Translations under genes and position numbers: made by a program
Notes under the pieces: model-generated
What the model saw: only the letters and a program-made list of their open reading frames with translations
What the model was told of the DNA's origin: nothing
Database searches by the model: none
Shown here: positions 3,307 to 37,670 of the stretch, one piece after another
How the letters are laid out: every line of letters begins with the position of its first letter
How positions within the stretch are numbered: position 1 is the stretch's first letter
Assembly (NCBI GenBank): GCA_018815325.1
Contig: JAHIYE010000026.1
Location: forward strand, 1-64,000
DNA: 64,000 nucleotides
Reading direction: 5' to 3'
Source: Gammaproteobacteria bacterium
GTDB lineage: Bacteria > Pseudomonadota > Gammaproteobacteria > Burkholderiales > Burkholderiaceae_C

Positions 3307-6186
3307 TCAAGCCAGCAGTTGTTTCAGCACATAGGGCAGGATGCCGCCGCTGCGGTAGTAATCCACCTCCACCGGGGTGTCGATGCGCAGGGTCAGCATC
3401 ACCTTCTGCTGGCTGCCGTCGGCGCGGGTGATCACCAGTTGTGCATCACTTTGTGGCTTGAGGTCATCACGCGGGATGATGTCGATCAGCTCCTGGCCTG
3501 TCAGGCCCAGCGACTCCCATGAATCCTTGCCCTTGAACTGCAGCGGCAGCACGCCCATGCCTACGAGGTTGCTGCGGTGGATGCGCTCGAAGCTGCGCGC
3601 CACCACCGCCTTGATACCCAACAGCTGAGTGCCCTTGGCGGCCCAGTCGCGGCTGGAGCCGGTGCCATATTCCTCGCCCGCAAACACCACAGTCGGGGTG
3701 CCGCGGCGCATGTATTGCATCGCAGCGTCGAAGATGGCCATTTTTTCACCGCTGGGCTGGAACAGCGTGACACCACCTTCCTCACGCGAGCCGTCGGCGC
3801 TGGCCGGAATCATGAGGTTCTTGATGCGCACGTTGGCAAAGGTGCCGCGCATCATCACGTCATGGTTGCCGCGCCGTGCACCATAGCTGTTGAAGTCGGC
3901 TTTTTGCACCCCATGCTTGACAAGCCACTGGCCGGCGGGCGAGCTTTCCTTGATGGCGCCGGCAGGAGAAATATGGTCGGTCGTGATCGAATCGCCGAAC
4001 AAGGCCATGATGCGTGCCATGCGCACGGTCGCGGTGTCAGCCTGGCCGGTGCTGGCCTTCTTGTCACCAAAATGCTCAAAGAATGGCGGCTCGGCGATAT
4101 AGGTGCTGCGGGGCCAGTTGTAGGCTGTACCACTGACGCCCGAGATGGCCTCCCACAGTTCGCCGGGCTCGGACTTGACCCGCGCGTAGTTGGCCTTGAA
4201 GGCCTTGCCGTTCATGGCGAACTTCAACAGCTTGTGGATTTCGTCGCTGCTGGGCCAGACATCTCCGAGGTACACGTCCCGGCCGCCTTTGCCCTTGCCC
4301 AGCGGCTCGGTCATCAGGTCACGGGTGACGGTGCCTGCAATCGCATAAGCCACCACCAGCGGCGGGCTGGCCAAAAAGTTGGCCTTGATGTTGGGGTGGA
4401 TACGGGCCTCGAAGTTGCGGTTGCCCGACAGCACGGCCGCACATACCAGGTCGTTCTGACTGATCAGGGCATTGAGCTCGGGCGTGAGGTCGCCCGAGTT
4501 GCCGATACAGGTGGTGCAGCCATAGCCCGCCAGTGCAAAGCCGAGCTTCTCCAGATAAGGCAGCAAGCCGGTTTCGGTCAGGTATTCGGTGACGATGCGC
4601 GAGCCGGGTGCCAGCGAAGTCTTGATGTGCGGCTGCACCTTCAGGCCGGCCTCAACCGCTTTTTTCGCCAGCAGGCCTGCGGCCAGCAGCACGCTGGGGT
4701 TGGAGGTGTTGGTGCAGCTGGTGATGGCGGCGATCAGGATGTCGCCATTACCAACGGTCACGTCCACCTCCTCACGGCTGCTCAGTTTGCCGGGCATGCG
4801 GGCCGTCTCGCGGCTGGGGCGGTTGGCCACCATTTCTTCCACGTCCCGGGCAGCGCCCATGGGCGCAGGCGGGTCCATCGGCCGGCCTGGTGCCGAGGCC
4901 GGTTCTGGGCGCAGGGGATAGCGGGGCATGAGCCGGTCTGCCGACTGGTTGAAACCATTCTCGGCAGACGACTTGCTGAACAGGGAGGCAAACTGGCGGC
5001 TCACCTGGCCAAGTTCGATGCGGTCCTGCGGGCGCTTGGGGCCGGCCAGACTGGGAGTGACCTTGCCCAGATCCAGCTTGACCACCTGCGAGTAATCAAT
5101 ATCCCCCGTCTTGGGCACACCAAACAGGCCCTGGGCCTTGAAATAAGCCTCAAAGGCCTGAATCTCGGCCTGCGTGCGGCCCGTGCCCGTGAAGTAATCA
5201 ATGGTTTTTTCGTCCACCGGGAAGAAGCCCATGGTGGCGCCGTACTCGGGCGCCATGTTGGCAATCGTGGCACGGTCAGGCAGGGCCAGGGTACGCGTGC
5301 CTTCGCCAAAGAACTCGACAAACTTGCCCACCACCTTGTGCTGGCGCAGGATTTCGGTCACGGTCAGCACGAGGTCGGTGGCGGTCACGCCTTCGCGCAA
5401 CCGCCCGCTCAGCTCGAAGCCCACCACGTCCGGCGTGAGGAAGTAGACCGGCTGGCCCAGCATGGCGGCCTCGGCCTCGATGCCGCCCACCCCCCAGCCC
5501 ACCACGCCAATGCCGTTGATCATGGTGGTGTGGCTGTCGGTGCCCACCAGGGTGTCGGGGTAATAGACGCCGTCCTGGGTCTTGTGCACACCGCGTGCGA
5601 GGTACTCCAGGTTGACCTGGTGCACGATGCCAAAGCCAGGTGGCACCACGCGGAAGGTGTCAAAGGCCTGCATGCCCCATTTCATGAACTCATAGCGCTC
5701 GCGGTTGCGGGAGAACTCCAGCTTCATGTTGAGGTCCAGCGAGTTCTTCTTGCCATAGTGGTCCACCATCACCGAATGGTCCACCACCAGGTCTACGGGC
5801 ACCAGCGGCTCTACGCGCTTGGGGTCTTTGCCCAATCTGGTGGCCGTGCTGCGCATAGCGGCCAGGTCCACCAGCAAGGGGACGCCCGTGAAGTCCTGCA
5901 GCACCACGCGCGAGACCACAAAGGGGATCTCCTGCGTGCGTTCCTTGCCGGCCTTCATGCGTGGCGCCCAGTTGGCCAGCTCGGCCACATGCTCGGGCGT
6001 GATGCGCCGACCATCGCAGTTGCGCAGCACAGACTCCAGCACGATGCGCACGCACACGGGCAGGCGTGTGATGCTGGGGAAGGTCTTGGCCAGCGCTGGC
6101 AGCGAGTACAGCATGCCACTCGATGAGGGGGAGCTTTTGAAGCTCTTCAGGGTGGATGCAAATGGGTGAGCAGATGGGGTGGCCAT
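3307..6186 (-). CDS. acnA: Aconitate hydratase A
   Basis: Aconitase interconverts citrate and isocitrate in the TCA cycle and carries a 4Fe-4S cluster. The product is 959 residues, about 70 longer than E. coli AcnA. The three cluster cysteines are visible: Cys491 in TSCTNTSNP, and Cys557 and Cys560 in [12 protein letters not shown]. The spacing of 66 between Cys491 and Cys557 equals that in E. coli. The extra length lies mainly in a Pro/Arg-rich stretch at about residues 405-475, just before the TSCTN motif. The C-terminal swivel domain ([15 protein letters not shown]) is intact. The start is set at 6186, where aaggagatcgcc precedes ATGGCCACC; longer readings upstream lack a ribosome site. 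2-methylisocitrate dehydratase AcnD is less likely given the length and AcnA-type motifs. Confidence 0.93.
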
Positions 6187-31315: not shown

Positions 31316-31405
31316 GGAGAGGTGGATGAGCGGTTTAAGTCGCACGCCTGGAAAGCGTGTGAGGGGTTATACCCTCCGCGGGTTCGAATCCCGCCCTCTC
31401 CGCCA
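31316..31405 (+). tRNA. tRNA-Ser, anticodon GGA
   Basis: A 90-base tRNA with a 7-bp acceptor stem (GGAGAGG / CCTCTCC), encoded CCA end, a long class II variable arm as in serine tRNAs, and the T-loop GGTTCGAATCC. The anticodon stem CACGC/GCGTG encloses CTGGAAA, anticodon GGA, which reads UCC and UCU. It stands alone. Confidence 0.95.
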
Positions 31406-31486: not shown

Positions 31487-31576
31487 TTTCCCGCTCACCG
31501 ACAGTCAGTCCAATGACAGGGATAGCAGCCTCGCATCCACAGGCTGTGCATGAAAGGGATTCCGCTAGAATCAGCA

Positions 31577-31680
31577 TTGCTCCGGGGTGCAATGCCTTGT
31601 CACAAGTGGCAAGCAATAGCTGAGATGGTTTTACCGAACCCGTGAACTTGAATCGGATCATGCCGACGTAAGAAGAGCTG
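31577..31680 (+). promoter_or_regulatory. TPP riboswitch (THI element)
   Basis: The stretch carries the conserved blocks of the thiamine pyrophosphate aptamer in order: CTCCGGGGTGC (31580-31590), a variable P3 arm, GCTGAGAT (31619-31626), then ACCCGTGAACTTGAATCGG (from about 31638) and the P5 closure CGG-ATCATG-CCG with GACGTAAG. P1 is closed by GCTC (31579-31582) and GAGC (31675-31678). The CUGAGA T-loop motif that recognises the pyrimidine of TPP is intact. It lies 157 bases before the first gene of the luxE-like operon, so that operon should be turned off by TPP. Confidence 0.92.
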
Positions 31681-31699
31681 TCAGGAAATCTCCCATAAC

Positions 31700-31754
31700 C
31701 TGTCACATCTTTCGAGGCATGTTTGCAACCATGCAATCGAAAGCAGGATGACAG
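31700..31754 (+). promoter_or_regulatory. Candidate expression platform of the TPP riboswitch
   Basis: A long hairpin: CTGTCA (31700-31705) can pair with TGACAG (31749-31754). Inside it CTTTCGA (31709-31715) pairs with TCGAAAG (31737-31743), and GCATG (31717-31721) pairs with CATGC (31730-31734). No T run follows, so it is not an intrinsic terminator. CTGTCA also occurs at 31678-31683, at the 3' side of P1, and at 31830-31835, between the ribosome site and the ATG. TGACAG therefore has three possible partners, which would allow translational switching. This is inference from complementarity. Confidence 0.4.
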
Positions 31755-31836
31755 TGTTCTCCCCTCAGTGTAATAACTCGCTGCTGCTACCAAGCCATGT
31801 AATGCCATCCGGCAGGCGTGCAGGAAGGGCTGTCAA

Positions 31837-32916
31837 ATGATCCCCTCCTCGTTGCTGACCGACTTGCTGGCCTGCATTGCCTCGGACGATGCTTCGGACG
31901 AAGCGTTTGATCAGATGGCTCTGGCCCTATTCGCCTACCAGTATCAGAACAACCTGCCGTTTCAGCGTTTTTGTCAGCAGCGGGGCAAAACCCAGCGCAC
32001 GGTCCGGCACTGGACGGACATTCCGGCCGTTCCCATCAACGGCTTCAAGGACTTGACGCTGAGTTGTGTGCCCATAGAACAGGCTGAGCGCGTCTTCATG
32101 ACCAGTGGTACCACGCGGGGGGATGTCAAGGGTCGGCATTTTCATCCCAGCCTGAGTGTCTATGACGCGTCGATGACTCAAAACTTTGCTGAGCGCTTCA
32201 TGCTCGGTGAAGAAAAAATCCGCATGGGCATTCTGTTTCCCTCGGAGCGTGAGATGCCCAACTCGTCATTGGCGCATTACCTGTCCCTGGCGGTGCAGAC
32301 TTTTGGTACGCCAGAGAGTCATTACCTGTTGACGCCCAATGGACTGGACGATGAGCGCGTGCTGGCTGAGCTCGAACGCGCAGAACGGTTGGGCGAGCCC
32401 TATGCTTTGCTCGGGGCGAGTTACAGCTTTGTCCATTTGATTGATATGCTGCAGCAGCAAGGCCGGCGCTATAGGCTGCCGCCGGGCAGCCGCGTGCTGG
32501 ATACGGGGGGCTTCAAGGGGCAGTCACGTGAAGTGGCGATGGAAGATTTTTATGCGCAGCTGTCTTCCACGCTGGGCATTCCCCGCAGTGACTGCATCAA
32601 TATGTATGGCATGACCGAGCTCAGCACCCAGTTCTATGATGCGGGCAATGCGACCTTGCCCTCCGTCAAGTCCGGCCCGCACTGGATACGCAGCCGCGTG
32701 CTCGACCCCTTGAGCGGGCTGGAAGTGCCGCCCGGAGAGCAGGGCATCCTGGCGCATTGCGACCTCGGCAACTTCAATTCCGTCACCACCATCCTGACCG
32801 AGGATGTGGGCGTGGCTGTGGACGGCGGTTTTCTTCTGCTCGGTCGCGCGCAAGGGAGTGTAGCCAAGGGATGCTCACTGGCGGTAGAAGAGTTTTTGCA
32901 GGCAGCCAGAGCATGA
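31837..32916 (+). CDS. LuxE-like acyl-protein synthetase (carboxylate-activating enzyme)
   Basis: A 359-residue ANL-superfamily enzyme most like LuxE, which adenylates a carboxylic acid and holds the acyl group on a cysteine for reduction. The ATP-binding loop SGTTRGDVKG is at 90-99 and the A5-type YGMTE at 257-261. The C-terminal KGCSLAVEE contains Cys346, in the place of the LuxE acyl-carrying cysteine. The first gene after a TPP riboswitch, it has an aggaagg ribosome site 10 bases before ATG 31837. Its stop overlaps the luxC-like start (ATGA). No luciferase genes are present, so light production is not suggested. The substrate is unknown; a thiamine-related acid is inferred from the riboswitch. 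Confidence 0.82.
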   Translation: MIPSSLLTDLLACIASDDASDEAFDQMALALFAYQYQNNLPFQRFCQQRGKTQRTVRHWTDIPAVPINGFKDLTLSCVPIEQAERVFMTSGTTRGDVKGRHFHPSLSVYDASMTQNFAERFMLGEEKIRMGILFPSEREMPNSSLAHYLSLAVQTFGTPESHYLLTPNGLDDERVLAELERAERLGEPYALLGASYSFVHLIDMLQQQGRRYRLPPGSRVLDTGGFKGQSREVAMEDFYAQLSSTLGIPRSDCINMYGMTELSTQFYDAGNATLPSVKSGPHWIRSRVLDPLSGLEVPPGEQGILAHCDLGNFNSVTTILTEDVGVAVDGGFLLLGRAQGSVAKGCSLAVEEFLQAARA

Positions 32917-34367
32917 ACACGATGAAAGAGGTCGCTGGTTACCTGCCGGGCTTGGCGCCCACCGACCTGCAATGGCAGACCCTGAGGTTTGACAACCGGG
33001 GAGAGCGACTGGAGGTCGCTGTACCTGTGCTGACCGAGGCGCAAATTGCCGAGCTGGCGACACGGGTACGCGCCGCGAGCCGCAGGGTCTTGCAGTCCAT
33101 GACGGTATCTGACATCGTGCAAGTACTGGACCGGGCGGTAGCGCGCCTGCTGGACACGCAGGACCCTTATCGCCAGAAAGCCGAGCGTCTGCTGCCACTG
33201 GTGACTGGCTACGACGCAGAAATGGTGCGCCTGGGTCTGACGGGCTATCTGAAGACCTTTCGCCAACCCCAGTTACAGCGCTTTCTGGTGGAGGACTTTG
33301 GCAACCCGCTTTTACTGGATGCGTTCCAGCCACGCGCCACAGGCGGCTTCACACGTGCCTATGGGGCCGAGTTGTCGGTTCATGTCTGGGCCGGCAATGT
33401 GCCCGGACTACCCTTGTGGAGTCTGATATCGAGCCTGCTCGTGAAGTCGGGCACGGTAGGCAAGCTAGCCAGCGCCGAGCCCCTGTTTGCGGGCTGGTTT
33501 GCGCAACTGCTGGTGGAGGTCGAACCCGCACTGGCCGATTGCCTGGCCGTCGTCTGGTGGAAGGGCGGTGATGAGGCGCAGGAAAAAGCCTTCTTCAGGC
33601 AGGCCGATGTGGTGCTGGCCTATGGTGGCAACACCTCGCTGGAGAAGATGCGTGACTTGGTGCCCATCACGACACGCTTCCTGCCACATGGCCACAAGCT
33701 CAGCCTGGGCATGGTGTCACGGCAGGCGCTCGACGCCCGCCAGGCCCTGAAAACCGCGCAGCTGGCCGCCCATGACGTGATGCGCTATGACCAGCAGGGC
33801 TGTTATTCGCCACACCTGTTTTACGTCGAGCGCGGCGGGAAAATTTCACCTGAAGATTTCTCCCGTTATCTGGCCAACGAACTGGCCTGCTTCGAGCAGA
33901 AATATCCCCGGCGCGAGCTGACGCTGACGGAAACAGTCAGTCTGGCGCAATGGCGCCAGACCGAGGAGCTCAAAAGCGTCTCGGTGTCAGGGATGGATGT
34001 GTCCGGCGAGGGCGGCTGGACCGTGGTGTACTGCGACGCCCTACAGGAGTTGGCGCCCAGTGGCCTGGACCGCACGGTGCGGGTGGTCGCCGTGGCTGAT
34101 CTGGCGCAGGTCATTCCGCTGATAACACCGCACCGGACCTTGCTGCAGACGGTTGGACTGGCCGCAGCGCCGCGTGAACTGTTTGCGCTGGCGAACCTGC
34201 TGGGGGCTGCGGGTGTGACACGCATTTGTGCCGTGGGACAGATGACAGCGCCGCAGGCAGGCTGGCACCACGATGGCCGCTTCAGCCTGCTGGACCTCGT
34301 GCAGATGGTTGATATCGATGCCTCGGCTGAAGCCGCCAGCGAAGCATTTGCATCTTATGTGGACTAG
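32913..34367 (+). CDS. LuxC-like acyl-CoA/acyl-protein reductase
   Basis: A 484-residue protein of the LuxC family (PF05893), an aldehyde-dehydrogenase-fold reductase that takes the acyl group from LuxE onto a cysteine and reduces it to aldehyde with NADPH. The LuxC pattern VHVWAGNVPGLPLWSL is at about 156-171. The catalytic cysteine is Cys297 in DQQGCYSPHLFYVE. Length and layout match lux-operon LuxC (about 480). It is coupled to the LuxE-like gene by an ATGA overlap, so the two should form a carboxylic acid reductase. An ABC transporter ATPase gene follows after 17 bases. Confidence 0.85.
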   Translation: MNTMKEVAGYLPGLAPTDLQWQTLRFDNRGERLEVAVPVLTEAQIAELATRVRAASRRVLQSMTVSDIVQVLDRAVARLLDTQDPYRQKAERLLPLVTGYDAEMVRLGLTGYLKTFRQPQLQRFLVEDFGNPLLLDAFQPRATGGFTRAYGAELSVHVWAGNVPGLPLWSLISSLLVKSGTVGKLASAEPLFAGWFAQLLVEVEPALADCLAVVWWKGGDEAQEKAFFRQADVVLAYGGNTSLEKMRDLVPITTRFLPHGHKLSLGMVSRQALDARQALKTAQLAAHDVMRYDQQGCYSPHLFYVERGGKISPEDFSRYLANELACFEQKYPRRELTLTETVSLAQWRQTEELKSVSVSGMDVSGEGGWTVVYCDALQELAPSGLDRTVRVVAVADLAQVIPLITPHRTLLQTVGLAAAPRELFALANLLGAAGVTRICAVGQMTAPQAGWHHDGRFSLLDLVQMVDIDASAEAASEAFASYVD

Positions 34368-34384
34368 GAACAGGCCCTAACAGC

Positions 34385-35131
34385 ATGAGTTTCCTGGACA
34401 TGCATCAGGTGAGCTACAACTACCGCGGCCAGATGCTGGTGGTACAGGCCGTGGACTGGACCATTGCGCGCGGCGAGTTCCATTGCCTGGTCGGGCGTAG
34501 CGGTTGCGGCAAGACGACCCTGCTCAAGCTGGCGGCCGGGCTGCTCAAGCCGGATGCGGGCACGATCACGCTGGATGGCCAGCGGCTGGTCAAGCCAGGT
34601 CCGCAACTGGGCTATGTGTTCCAGTCGCCGACCTTGCTGGAATGGCGCACCGTGCTGGACAACATTCTTTTGCCGATTGCCTTGCAGCGCGAACCTGCGG
34701 GGCCAGACCTGGCCAGGGCAGCGGACTTGCTGGCTCTCATGGGCTTGTCGGACTATGGTGGGCGCTATCCGGGCGAGTTGTCGGGTGGTCAGCAGAGCCG
34801 GGTGGCCATCGCCAGGGCGCTGATTCTCGAACCGGCCTTGCTGCTGCTGGATGAGCCTTTTGCAGCGCTGGATGCCATCACGCGTGAAGAGTTGCAGGAT
34901 GATCTGCTGAATATCTGTCATCTTGGTCAGACCTCCGTATTCTTCGTGACCCATGACATTACGGAAGCCGTGTACCTGGCTGACCGGGTGGCGGTCATGG
35001 CGGAGGGCCGGATTCGGCTGGACCTGAAGGTTGATTTGCCCAAGCCACGCCGACGGGATGCCCGCTATGGCGCAGATTTCAATGCGCGTTGCGCCCGTGT
35101 GCGCCATGCCATGGATGGAGCACTGGCATGA
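34385..35131 (+). CDS. ABC transporter ATP-binding protein (ThiZ/SsuB-like)
   Basis: A 248-residue ATPase of the nitrate/taurine/NMT1 importer class. Walker A is GRSGCGKTT (about 38-46), the signature is LSGGQQ (about 136-141), and Walker B with its catalytic Glu is LLLLDEP; the H-loop is FFVTHD. Its stop overlaps the permease start (ATGA). With the permease and an NMT1-like binding protein it forms an importer under TPP riboswitch control, analogous to ThiXYZ, which imports pyrimidine precursors of thiamine. Confidence 0.92.
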   Translation: MSFLDMHQVSYNYRGQMLVVQAVDWTIARGEFHCLVGRSGCGKTTLLKLAAGLLKPDAGTITLDGQRLVKPGPQLGYVFQSPTLLEWRTVLDNILLPIALQREPAGPDLARAADLLALMGLSDYGGRYPGELSGGQQSRVAIARALILEPALLLLDEPFAALDAITREELQDDLLNICHLGQTSVFFVTHDITEAVYLADRVAVMAEGRIRLDLKVDLPKPRRRDARYGADFNARCARVRHAMDGALA

Positions 35132-35886
35132 GCCGAGTCATCTCACTGCTCTTGCTGCTCGGGTTGCTGCTCGGGTGGGAAATGGCTTCGCAAGCATCCC
35201 GACTTTCCGCACTGGTTCTACCGGCACCGTCCGTGATTGGGTTGACGCTCTGGCATGGCATTCTCTCCGGTTACTTCTGGCCGCATCTCGTGCATACGGG
35301 GACCGAGCTGTTTCTGGGGCTGACCCTGGGTGGCCTGTTCGGTTTTTTTTCGGGGATCGCGATGGGGGAGTCTGAATTCCTGCGGCGCGTACTGTTTCCC
35401 TATGTGGTGACCAGTCAGGTCGTGCCTAAACTGGCCCTGGCGCCCCTGTTCATTGTCTGGTTTGGTTTTGGCATGACATCGACTGTGGTGATCACTGCGC
35501 TGATCTGCTTTTTCCCCTTGATGGAAAACACGGTCACCAGCTTGCAGCAGGTCGACCTTCAAAAACTGGAACTGTTCCGCATGTTGGGGGCGACACGCCT
35601 GCAAACCCTCCTGCGACTGAAGATTCCCGCGGGCTTGCCGGGCATCATGGCCGGCTTGCGCGTGGCGGTTGTTCTGGCGCTGGTGGGGGCGGTGGTCGGC
35701 GAATTCATCGGTGGCAGCAAGGGTTTGGGGGCATTGATCATTGCCTCGCAAGGGATGATGGATACACCGCTCATGTTTGCTGTGCTTCTGATCATCACCT
35801 TATTGGGTTTGCTGGTTTATCAAATGGCAATCGCGGTAGAGAGGTTCTTTCTCTCGCCGCATTTAAAAAACAGGGAAAAGGAATAG
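35128..35886 (+). CDS. ABC transporter permease (ThiX/SsuC-like)
   Basis: A 252-residue inner-membrane protein with about six helices and the BPD_transp_1 fold. The EAA loop that docks the ATPase is visible near LEL-FRMLGATRLQTLLRLKIP (about 150-170). The start is set at ATG 35128, which overlaps the ATPase stop. The binding-protein gene begins 4 bases after its stop. It is the membrane channel of the inferred thiamine-precursor importer. Confidence 0.9.
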   Translation: MSRVISLLLLLGLLLGWEMASQASRLSALVLPAPSVIGLTLWHGILSGYFWPHLVHTGTELFLGLTLGGLFGFFSGIAMGESEFLRRVLFPYVVTSQVVPKLALAPLFIVWFGFGMTSTVVITALICFFPLMENTVTSLQQVDLQKLELFRMLGATRLQTLLRLKIPAGLPGIMAGLRVAVVLALVGAVVGEFIGGSKGLGALIIASQGMMDTPLMFAVLLIITLLGLLVYQMAIAVERFFLSPHLKNREKE

Positions 35887-35890
35887 AGGA

Positions 35891-36889
35891 ATGAAGAAGT
35901 CAATGACGAAATCCATGTTCTCGTTCGTGGCTGCAGCGCTCTTTGCGTTGGGTGCAACGAGCATCAGCCAGGCTGCCGGCCCGGACAAGGTCGCGGTGGC
36001 TGGCTGGAGTCAGCCGATTTCGGAAATCACCAACCTGCTGGTCGATGGGGACAAAGGCTTCTTCAAGGCCAAGGGCCTGGAGCTGACCTACGTGCCGGGT
36101 GCCGGTGGTGGTGATGCGATCCGCAACATGCTGACCGGTCAGGCTCAGGTGGCATTTACCGACCCCGGCTCCTTCTTTGCCGCTCTGGACAAGGGAGAAA
36201 AGCTGCGTGCTATCTACGATATCTATCCTCAAAACGTGTTCAATGTGGTATCGCTCAAGAGCAGCAACATCACTAGGCCTGCGGATTTGAAAGGCAAGAA
36301 AATTGGCGTCTACAGCCTCTCCAGCGGAACGCGCCAGAATCTGCTGGTGTTGTTGCACCAGGCCGGTCTCACTGAGGCGGATGTCACGATAGTGGTCACA
36401 GGCCTGCTGAACTTCGCCCCCTTGATACAGGGGCAGGTGGATGCAACAGCCGCTACGGACACGGGCCTGCTAGTGGCCAGGCAAAAGGGAGTGGGGGATG
36501 TCAATGTCATGGAGGTTCGCAATTACCTGAACATTTCCAGCGACATGTTCGTGGTGACGGAGGAGACTTACCAGAACAGAAAAGACCTGTTGAAACGTTT
36601 TCTGGCGGCCTACCGCGACAGTGCAGCCTGGATGATCCAGAACCCGGATGAGGCTGCCGCCCTGGCGGTGAAGCGCACCATCAATGGCAAGGATCTGGCT
36701 GTGAACCGCGAAGTCATCCAGCTGCGCAATGTATCCAGTGTTTCACCCATGACCAAGGCGCACGGGCTGGGCGCATTTGACTTGGTGGTGTTGCAGAAAG
36801 CGGCCGAGACCTATAAAAAACTGGGCATGGTCCAGCGAGACATCAGGGTGGCTGACGTTGTCAGCCAGGATCTCTTGCCGCAGAAATAA
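35891..36889 (+). CDS. NMT1/THI5-like ABC substrate-binding protein
   Basis: A 332-residue periplasmic protein. Its signal peptide ends near residue 28 (SISQA). The mature part is a type II binding fold of the SsuA/THI5 class, with the ligand-site patterns GWSQPISEITNLLVDGDKG, TGQAQVAFTDPGS and DLKGKKIGVYSLSSGT. ThiY of this class binds N-formylaminomethyl pyrimidine. The eukaryotic THI5 CCCFC motif is absent, as expected for a transporter component. With the riboswitch, this points to uptake of a pyrimidine or thiazole moiety or its acid. A second in-frame ATG at 35903 could also serve as start. Confidence 0.88.
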   Translation: MKKSMTKSMFSFVAAALFALGATSISQAAGPDKVAVAGWSQPISEITNLLVDGDKGFFKAKGLELTYVPGAGGGDAIRNMLTGQAQVAFTDPGSFFAALDKGEKLRAIYDIYPQNVFNVVSLKSSNITRPADLKGKKIGVYSLSSGTRQNLLVLLHQAGLTEADVTIVVTGLLNFAPLIQGQVDATAATDTGLLVARQKGVGDVNVMEVRNYLNISSDMFVVTEETYQNRKDLLKRFLAAYRDSAAWMIQNPDEAAALAVKRTINGKDLAVNREVIQLRNVSSVSPMTKAHGLGAFDLVVLQKAAETYKKLGMVQRDIRVADVVSQDLLPQK

Positions 36890-36902
36890 AACCCCATCCA
36901 TC

Positions 36903-37670
36903 ATGCAATTCAAGGGCAAGGTCATTTTGGTCACCGGTGCGAGTCGGGGTATCGGCGCAGCGATCGCAAAAGCCTTTGCGACTGAGGGCGGGACGGTGGC
37001 CGTCAACTACCTGCAAAACGCGCAGGCAGCAGAGGCCGTAGTCAATGACTGTCGGCAGGCCGGCGGCGATGCCTGGGCGATCCAGGCTGACGTGAGCTCC
37101 GAGCCCGCCGTGAAGGCGATGGTCGAGCAGGTAATGAACGAGATGGGGCGTATCGATGTGCTGGTCAATAACGCGTTTGCAAGCTACAGCTTCGACCCGG
37201 AGCAGCGCAGCATGTTCTGGGAAACCTCCTGGGCCGACTACCAGCGCCAGCTCGACGGCGCATTGAAGTCAACCTTCGGTGTTTGCCAGGCTGTGCTGCC
37301 GCATTTCAGAAAACGCAGCAGCGGCGCGATCGTCAACATGGTGAGCGACCTGGTGGAGCGCCCCACGGTGCCGTACCACGACTACACAACAGCCAAGTCG
37401 GCGTTGATCGGCTTCAGCCGCAACCTCGCGGCGGAACTGGGGCCCCTGGGCATCCGGGTCAACTGCGTGGCGCCGGGGCTGGTGTATCCGACAGCGGCGA
37501 GCCGGCAGACCCGTGAGGAGGTGAAGGACATGATCACAGCCCAGACCCCCTTGCGTCGTATCGCCAATCCCGGGGACGTGGCCGGCCCCGTGTTGTTTCT
37601 GGCCTCGGACTGGAGTCGCTTCATGACAGGGCAGACCCTGTTTGTCGACGGTGGCCTGGTGATGAAGTAA
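36903..37670 (+). CDS. Short-chain dehydrogenase/reductase, last gene of the TPP-regulated operon
   Basis: A 255-residue classical SDR. The NAD(P)-binding motif TGASRGIG is at 11-18, NNA at 89-91, and the catalytic triad Ser148, Tyr161, Lys165 (Y-TTA-K) is in place. It is annotated like FabG-type 3-oxoacyl reductases by overall sequence, but context suggests a different substrate. It follows the binding-protein gene after 13 bases, and would suit reduction of the aldehyde made by the LuxE/LuxC pair to an alcohol. The start is ATG 36903, since a longer reading overlaps the previous gene. Confidence 0.88.
   Translation: MQFKGKVILVTGASRGIGAAIAKAFATEGGTVAVNYLQNAQAAEAVVNDCRQAGGDAWAIQADVSSEPAVKAMVEQVMNEMGRIDVLVNNAFASYSFDPEQRSMFWETSWADYQRQLDGALKSTFGVCQAVLPHFRKRSSGAIVNMVSDLVERPTVPYHDYTTAKSALIGFSRNLAAELGPLGIRVNCVAPGLVYPTAASRQTREEVKDMITAQTPLRRIANPGDVAGPVLFLASDWSRFMTGQTLFVDGGLVMK

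Follow-up and report, generated by a model that had tools for sequence, protein, structure and literature searches.

A TPP riboswitch heads a six-gene operon

The DNA analysed here, called the window, is a stretch of 64,000 nt at the start of contig JAHIYE010000026.1, from a gammaproteobacterial genome of the Burkholderiaceae_C. It carries a thiamine pyrophosphate (TPP) riboswitch followed by an operon for relatives of the luminescence proteins LuxE and LuxC, an ATP-binding cassette (ABC) importer and a short-chain dehydrogenase/reductase (SDR). The features are, in order:

31573..31691, + strand: TPP riboswitch aptamer (THI element); RF00059, full model, 59.5 bits
31692..31836, + strand: leader, candidate expression platform; CTGTCA/TGACAG repeats, read from the sequence
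31837..32916, + strand: LuxE-like acid-activating protein (acyl-protein synthetase family), 359 aa; PF04443, 73.9 bits (cut-off 24.9); 7xc6 alignment; conserved residues
32913..34367, + strand: LuxC-like acyl reductase, 484 aa; PF05893, 304.8 bits (cut-off 21); 7xc6 alignment; Cys297
34385..35131, + strand: ABC importer ATPase; PF00005 (ABC_tran), 115.3 bits
35128..35886, + strand: ABC importer permease; PF00528 (BPD_transp_1), 104.2 bits
35891..36889, + strand: NMT1/THI5-family periplasmic binding protein; PF09084 (NMT1), 174.7 bits; structure model and fold matches
36903..37670, + strand: SDR, proposed to reduce an aldehyde to hydroxymethylpyrimidine (HMP); PF13561 (adh_short_C2), 213.5 bits; NF006393, 294.6 bits (cut-off 292)

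An earlier reading, made from the sequence alone, had described a full TPP aptamer followed by six same-strand genes with overlaps or short gaps, and both points hold. The covariance model of RF00059 matched over its full length, above its gathering score of 54.3 bits and with an E-value of 3.8e-9. The luxE-like gene starts 145 bases after the aptamer; it overlaps the luxC-like gene by 4 nt, as the ATPase gene does the permease gene, and the other gaps, i.e. luxC-ATPase, permease-binding protein and binding protein-SDR, are of 17, 4 and 13 nt, the operon ending at 37670.

The leader contains a possible expression platform. The hexamer CTGTCA occurs at 31678-31683 (inside the aptamer), 31700-31705 and 31830-31835, and its complement TGACAG once, at 31749-31754. 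The third CTGTCA adjoins the ribosome-binding site AGGAAGGG (31822-31829), and pairing between the two kinds of hexamer may possibly constitute a switch that masks this site or the luxE start. The minimum free energy fold of the leader is unremarkable (z = -1.08). A transcription terminator after the aptamer was considered and rejected, a terminator scan having given none from the aptamer to luxE.

The enzymes are LuxE and LuxC relatives outside the luminescence groups

The family assignments made from the sequence alone, i.e. a LuxE-like protein with an ATP loop and Cys346, a LuxC-like protein with Cys297, an importer of the NMT1/THI5 class and an SDR with a Ser-Tyr-Lys triad, were all recovered in the family scans, and the residues singled out are conserved. 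Alignment of 23 orthologs of the LuxE-like protein shows S90-G91-T92-T93 and Cys346 in every one; in the LuxC-like protein, Cys297 is invariant among 24. Tyr161 and Lys165 of the SDR are present in all 22 orthologs aligned, of which 17 have Ser and five Thr at position 148. The conserved LuxE residues and Cys297 presumably have the catalytic roles known from the Lux mechanism, acyl-accepting in the case of Cys297. Each Lux-like protein also aligns to a chain of the LuxC-LuxE complex 7xc6 across the region of Cys346 or Cys297 (for LuxE, with family profile A1).

Both proteins fall far below the cut-offs of the luminescence equivalogs (70.7 versus 550 bits for LuxE, NF052244; 103.6 versus 750 bits for LuxC, NF052251). 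The absence of luxA and luxB beside luxC and luxE was borne out within the range covered: none of the six operon proteins and three neighbouring ones gave a luciferase match in the family scans, which did not extend to the rest of the genome. Public annotation of three other loci (L127:7983-13819, L128:7974-11321 and L131:8028-13869) calls the LuxE-like gene a long-chain fatty acid CoA ligase. The LuxC-like gene of these loci is tagged bioluminescence, despite an upstream TPP riboswitch match (below the gathering score in L127).

A ThiXYZ-type importer completes the operon

Family scans and fold match together give a complete ThiXYZ-type set: NMT1-family binding protein, permease and ATPase. 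The binding protein, the one operon protein modelled, gave a structure model with a mean predicted local distance difference test score (pLDDT) of 89.9. Ranked by E-value, the two PDB folds closest to it are 4nmy, with bound thiamin, and 3ix1, the formylaminopyrimidine-binding ThiY, at 21% and 17% identity, respectively; 3qsl, sulfonate-binding proteins and Thi5 rank lower.

The gene set recurs under TPP riboswitches

Orthologs of the LuxE-like protein (E <= 1e-20) are present in 36 of 399 genomes of the same family, the window's own included, at 51-100% identity and in 20 of 141 genera; these genomes are called family holders below. A same-strand RF00059 match lies upstream in 35 of the 36, above the gathering score in 16 and below it, at 47.2-54.2 bits, in 19. 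In the exception, G116, the genome is 55% complete and a mere 240 bases separate luxE from the end of its contig. The distance from aptamer to luxE is 61-161 bases in 32 holders and 902-1039 bases in three (G120, G347 and G410), where thiD fills the gap.

When named genomes were scanned with a profile, 357 LuxE relatives were found at E <= 1e-3; the 80 best are referred to here as the named loci. They come mostly from Burkholderiales, with some from Alphaproteobacteria, Bacillaceae and relatives of Desulfotomaculum. All six genes are present in the window's order in 74 of these loci; in the other six a contig end truncates the operon. A crude search found CTGAGA within 700 bases upstream in 70; the ten misses are eight loci with thiD upstream, L119, whose contig begins 59 bases upstream, and L104. 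Five long loci that begin with thiD were scanned, and a riboswitch above the gathering score precedes thiD in four (L086, L106, L122 and L126, with none in L096). The recurrence of luxE-luxC pairs at other riboswitch loci, on which the sequence-only reading had made its case depend, is thus well documented: with the order kept in 74 of 80 loci and an upstream riboswitch match in 35 of 36 holders, the combination of riboswitch and gene set is more than chance.

The LuxE tree places the window sequence beside those of Rhodoferax and Polaromonas. It lends no support to a single transfer between phyla, the Bacillota and Pseudomonadota rows needing one label change each.

Loci with other importers delimit the constant part. 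A match was present in 27 plasmid records; eight loci from these were examined, seven of them with an RF00059 match above the gathering score and one, from Priestia, at 49.0 bits. In two Lactobacillaceae plasmids (L129 and L130, one from Lactiplantibacillus and one from Levilactobacillus) the riboswitch is followed by a gene for an NCS2 nucleobase permease (PF00860) and luxE-luxC-SDR; in Niallia (L132), two riboswitches are followed by thiW, an NCS2 permease gene (PF00860) and luxE-luxC-SDR. On both of the Pantoea plasmids analysed (L128 and L134) the riboswitch is followed by luxE-luxC-SDR alone, which identifies the three enzymes as the core of the module. LuxE-LuxC-SDR is the constant part when the importer is swapped or absent.

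Three further details of plasmid loci were noted. On the Niallia taxi megaplasmid (L132) the tandem riboswitches lie at 5697-5805 and 5884-5993. A Pseudomonas silvicola plasmid (L133:8001-11252) carries a riboswitch match above the gathering score, after which the matches to luxE-luxC-SDR are broken up; this copy is either decayed or affected by sequencing errors. The six-gene operon of Variovorax sp. WS11 (L112) is on a plasmid according to its record.

The genome to which the window belongs comprises 3.86 Mb in 27 contigs and contains TPP riboswitches at three sites: before thiC, between thiD and thiO-thiS-thiG-thiE, and at the operon. Auxotrophy of this genome was rejected, as thiC, thiG, thiO, thiE and thiD, marker genes for both halves of thiamine, are present; with thiC and thiG in place, the operon is here an added route and no replacement. 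The flanking genes looked at are ordinary ones, namely a tRNA-Ser gene and one for a periplasmic ligand-binding protein upstream, and SPFH and NfeD genes downstream in the opposite orientation. The tRNA-Ser (GGA), at 31316-31405, ends 167 bases before the riboswitch. A foreign base composition was also rejected (GC content of 0.596 for the operon versus 0.608 for the window), no island signal being seen.

Co-occurrence with thi genes links the operon to the pyrimidine half

The sequence-only reading had left open whether the product is HMP or hydroxyethylthiazole (HET), and whether genomes with the operon lack thiC or thiG. The other thi genes of the family holders speak to both. Full-length thiM, the gene for HET kinase, is present in 2 of 36 holders and in none of 28 non-holders (G120, a holder, has a partial match of 27.8 bits). 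A strong thiG match is found in 35 of 36 holders, and a partial one in G395. Most holders, being without thiM and with thiG, can therefore make thiazole but cannot use HET. As for thiC, it is absent from 11 of 36.

Of the 399 family genomes, 257 have thiC. Ten of the 11 holders without it retain thiG, the eleventh being a genome of 55% completeness, and no holder among the 36 has thiC and lacks thiG. Among the non-holders lacking thiC, thiG was tested in 92 of 131 (12, plus 80 of the remaining 119, every third being omitted). It is retained in nine, versus 10 of 11 holders (Fisher p = 3.9e-8, the genome counts being non-independent events), and restricting the comparison to genomes of 90% completeness or more gives 9 of 9 versus 6 of 68 (p = 3.1e-8). 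Because the genomes are related, the comparison was also made within genera: for the five that have both kinds of tested thiC-lacking genomes, the exact p is 0.0028, with the sole non-holder of one genus (g154) being 58% complete. Where thiC has been lost, thiazole synthesis is thus mostly kept when the operon, or in nine tested genomes another source, can supply the pyrimidine.

The named genomes agree with this picture. Eight of the 42 named holder genomes examined lack thiC (completeness not given), including two of Ramlibacter and three of Limnohabitans. In PMC12637900, Limnohabitans are described as having no thiC and as carrying pyrimidine importers of the thiV, thiY or cytX type; the three holder genomes are also without thiC. 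Gene neighbourhoods point the same way. Directly before luxE, thiD is found in eight of the 80 named loci (seven from Ramlibacter and one from a metagenome-assembled genome of Betaproteobacteria). In L096 the order is thiD-luxE-luxC-ABC-SDR-thiO-thiS-thiG-thiE, and in six more loci, two of them from Limnohabitans, the operon stands beside thiD and matches to thiO, thiG or thiE (L087, L091, L097, L100, L109 and L119). Overall, a match to any of nine thi query proteins was seen in the fetched flanks of 19 of the 80 loci, and none in 61.

A proposed route from an imported acid to HMP

From these data we conclude that the operon probably serves to salvage the pyrimidine moiety of thiamine, under control of the TPP riboswitch, by import of an acid and its reduction to HMP. 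The activation step and the two reductions are proposed on account of the known chemistry of the LuxE/LuxC and SDR families, and a pyrimidine as substrate on account of the genetic link to the HMP branch; enzyme activities, identity of the acid and importer ligand are all inferred from these two sources. The candidate acid is, most simply, 4-amino-2-methylpyrimidine-5-carboxylate. At low TPP, the riboswitch would permit expression of the operon and the ABC importer would take up the carboxylated pyrimidine, most simply the one just named. The LuxE-like protein would then activate the carboxylate with ATP and hold it as a thioester on Cys346; LuxC would receive the acyl group on Cys297 and use NAD(P)H to reduce it to the aldehyde, which the SDR would convert to HMP. 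Phosphorylation by ThiD and coupling by ThiE to the thiazole phosphate made by ThiO/S/G would complete the route.

Such a TPP-regulated passage from acid to aldehyde to alcohol had been suggested from the sequence alone, with a pyrimidine or a thiazole carboxylate as substrate. The scheme fits, and the choice is narrowed: thi gene co-occurrence, thiD and thiE neighbours, the nucleobase permease found in place of the importer and the binding-protein fold together favour the pyrimidine over the thiazole.

Several observations weigh against the proposal. Twenty-five of the 36 family holders have thiC, so that the module is often redundant or supplementary. Nine of the tested thiC-lacking non-holders keep thiG without this LuxE, three of them being less than 90% complete. 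One named locus, L104, has neither a riboswitch above the gathering score nor a thi neighbour. In four Bacillus or Neobacillus loci the operon follows thiM-thiD-thiE-[thiW] (ThiW being confirmed in L068 and L079), an arrangement which alone would fit a thiazole role; thiW and thiM could there serve the thiazole half and the operon the pyrimidine half. The TYINHE segment of 3ix1, which we take to bind the pyrimidine in ThiY, aligns to ATDTGL in the window protein. Given this replacement and the low identity, the importer ligand is probably related to that of ThiY yet distinct from it. As for the acid itself, 4-amino-2-methylpyrimidine-5-carboxylate is a mammalian thiamine catabolite, for which our literature search gave no paper, and it is not among the vitamers measured in the available part of PMC10881298.

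Some of these data would also suit a different substrate. HMP could be supplied independently of thiC from another imported acid, e.g. a larger thiamine breakdown product carrying the methylpyrimidine carboxylate; the thiC and thiG co-occurrence is the same in that case and the pocket segment unlike that of ThiY is in its favour. The ring would have to be present in any such acid, as three enzymes that activate and reduce carboxylates cannot, from what is known of their families, build a pyrimidine. We regard this variant as unlikely.

It is quite unlikely that the operon combines two separate roles, the importer carrying a known pyrimidine vitamer (HMP, aminopyrimidine or formylaminopyrimidine) while LuxE-LuxC-SDR serve some other acid, e.g. 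a fatty acid. The NMT1 family and fold neighbours of the binding protein are compatible with such a ligand, and LuxC and LuxE of luminous bacteria do act on fatty acids. The three enzymes, however, stay together under TPP riboswitches where the importer is replaced (L129, L130 and L132) or absent (L128 and L134), and their scores are far from those of the lux equivalogs.

Salvage of a thiazole acid, 4-methylthiazole-5-acetate, to HET has the gene order of the four Bacillus and Neobacillus loci on its side. It was rejected as the general explanation on the thiM and thiG counts, since most holders could not use HET, nearly all keep thiG and none has thiC without thiG; the nucleobase permease that replaces the ABC importer in some loci also speaks against it, and we hold it to be very improbable. 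Reduction of thiamine acetic acid, i.e. the whole vitamin in carboxylated form, to thiamine would agree with thiamin-bound 4nmy as best fold match of the binding protein, but thiC-lacking holders would then not need the thiG that 10 of 11 keep, and this last explanation was dismissed as barely credible.

Returning to the reduction of a pyrimidine acid, we lean slightly towards a wider claim, namely that this is a route to HMP independent of ThiC and of TenA/YlmB, in which an unrecognised vitamer, 4-amino-2-methylpyrimidine-5-carboxylate, is reduced by a repurposed Lux-type reductase and an SDR. Its core, found in several phyla, on chromosomes and plasmids and with interchangeable importers, would take the place of thiC in Burkholderiales of fresh water and soil that are now counted as HMP auxotrophs. 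Many aquatic bacteria have no thiC and are taken to rely on dissolved HMP. HMP auxotrophy is the commonest thiamin auxotrophy according to PMC11452348. If the claim is true, such bacteria use an oxidised vitamer absent from the survey in PMC10881298, as far as its available part goes, and the picture of vitamin B1 dependency changes. LuxE and LuxC relatives that are now annotated as fatty acid CoA ligase or bioluminescence proteins would in addition gain a physiological role, and the enzyme set is small and easily tested.

Comparison with known systems

The sequence-only reading knew of no described pathway of this form, and our searches of a partial, open-licence full-text literature agree: LuxE or LuxC with TPP riboswitch or thiamin, and acyl-CoA reductase with thiamin, gave no relevant paper, with the restrictions that one search missed papers using only the spelling "thiamine" and that an earlier mention in the 2002 survey of THI elements is possible.

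Four known systems resemble parts of the operon. With LuxC-LuxE of luminous bacteria (7xc6) it shares the two families, the conserved Cys residues and the adjacency of the genes; it differs by the lack of a luciferase in the operon, by scores far under the equivalog cut-offs, by the TPP riboswitch and by the SDR. ThiXYZ, itself under TPP control, is likewise a three-part ABC importer with a binding protein of the NMT1/THI5 family, and its ThiY (3ix1) ranks second among the fold matches. The identity is only 17%, however, the pocket segment is another one, and in the loci examined here the importer is joined to LuxE-LuxC-SDR.

TenA and YlmB also return the pyrimidine of thiamine breakdown products to HMP. 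They do so by hydrolysis of an amine or amide, whereas a carboxylate reduction is proposed here, and there is no TenA- or YlmB-type gene among the six. PMC10881298 lists aminomethylpyrimidine (AmMP) and formylaminopyrimidine (FAMP) as pyrimidine vitamers and tenA as a salvage gene. Finally, ThiC feeds the same HMP branch and is absent from 11 of the 36 family holders. Its route is not a salvage: it is the de novo synthesis of HMP phosphate, which starts from aminoimidazole ribotide (AIR), as described in PMC11117688.

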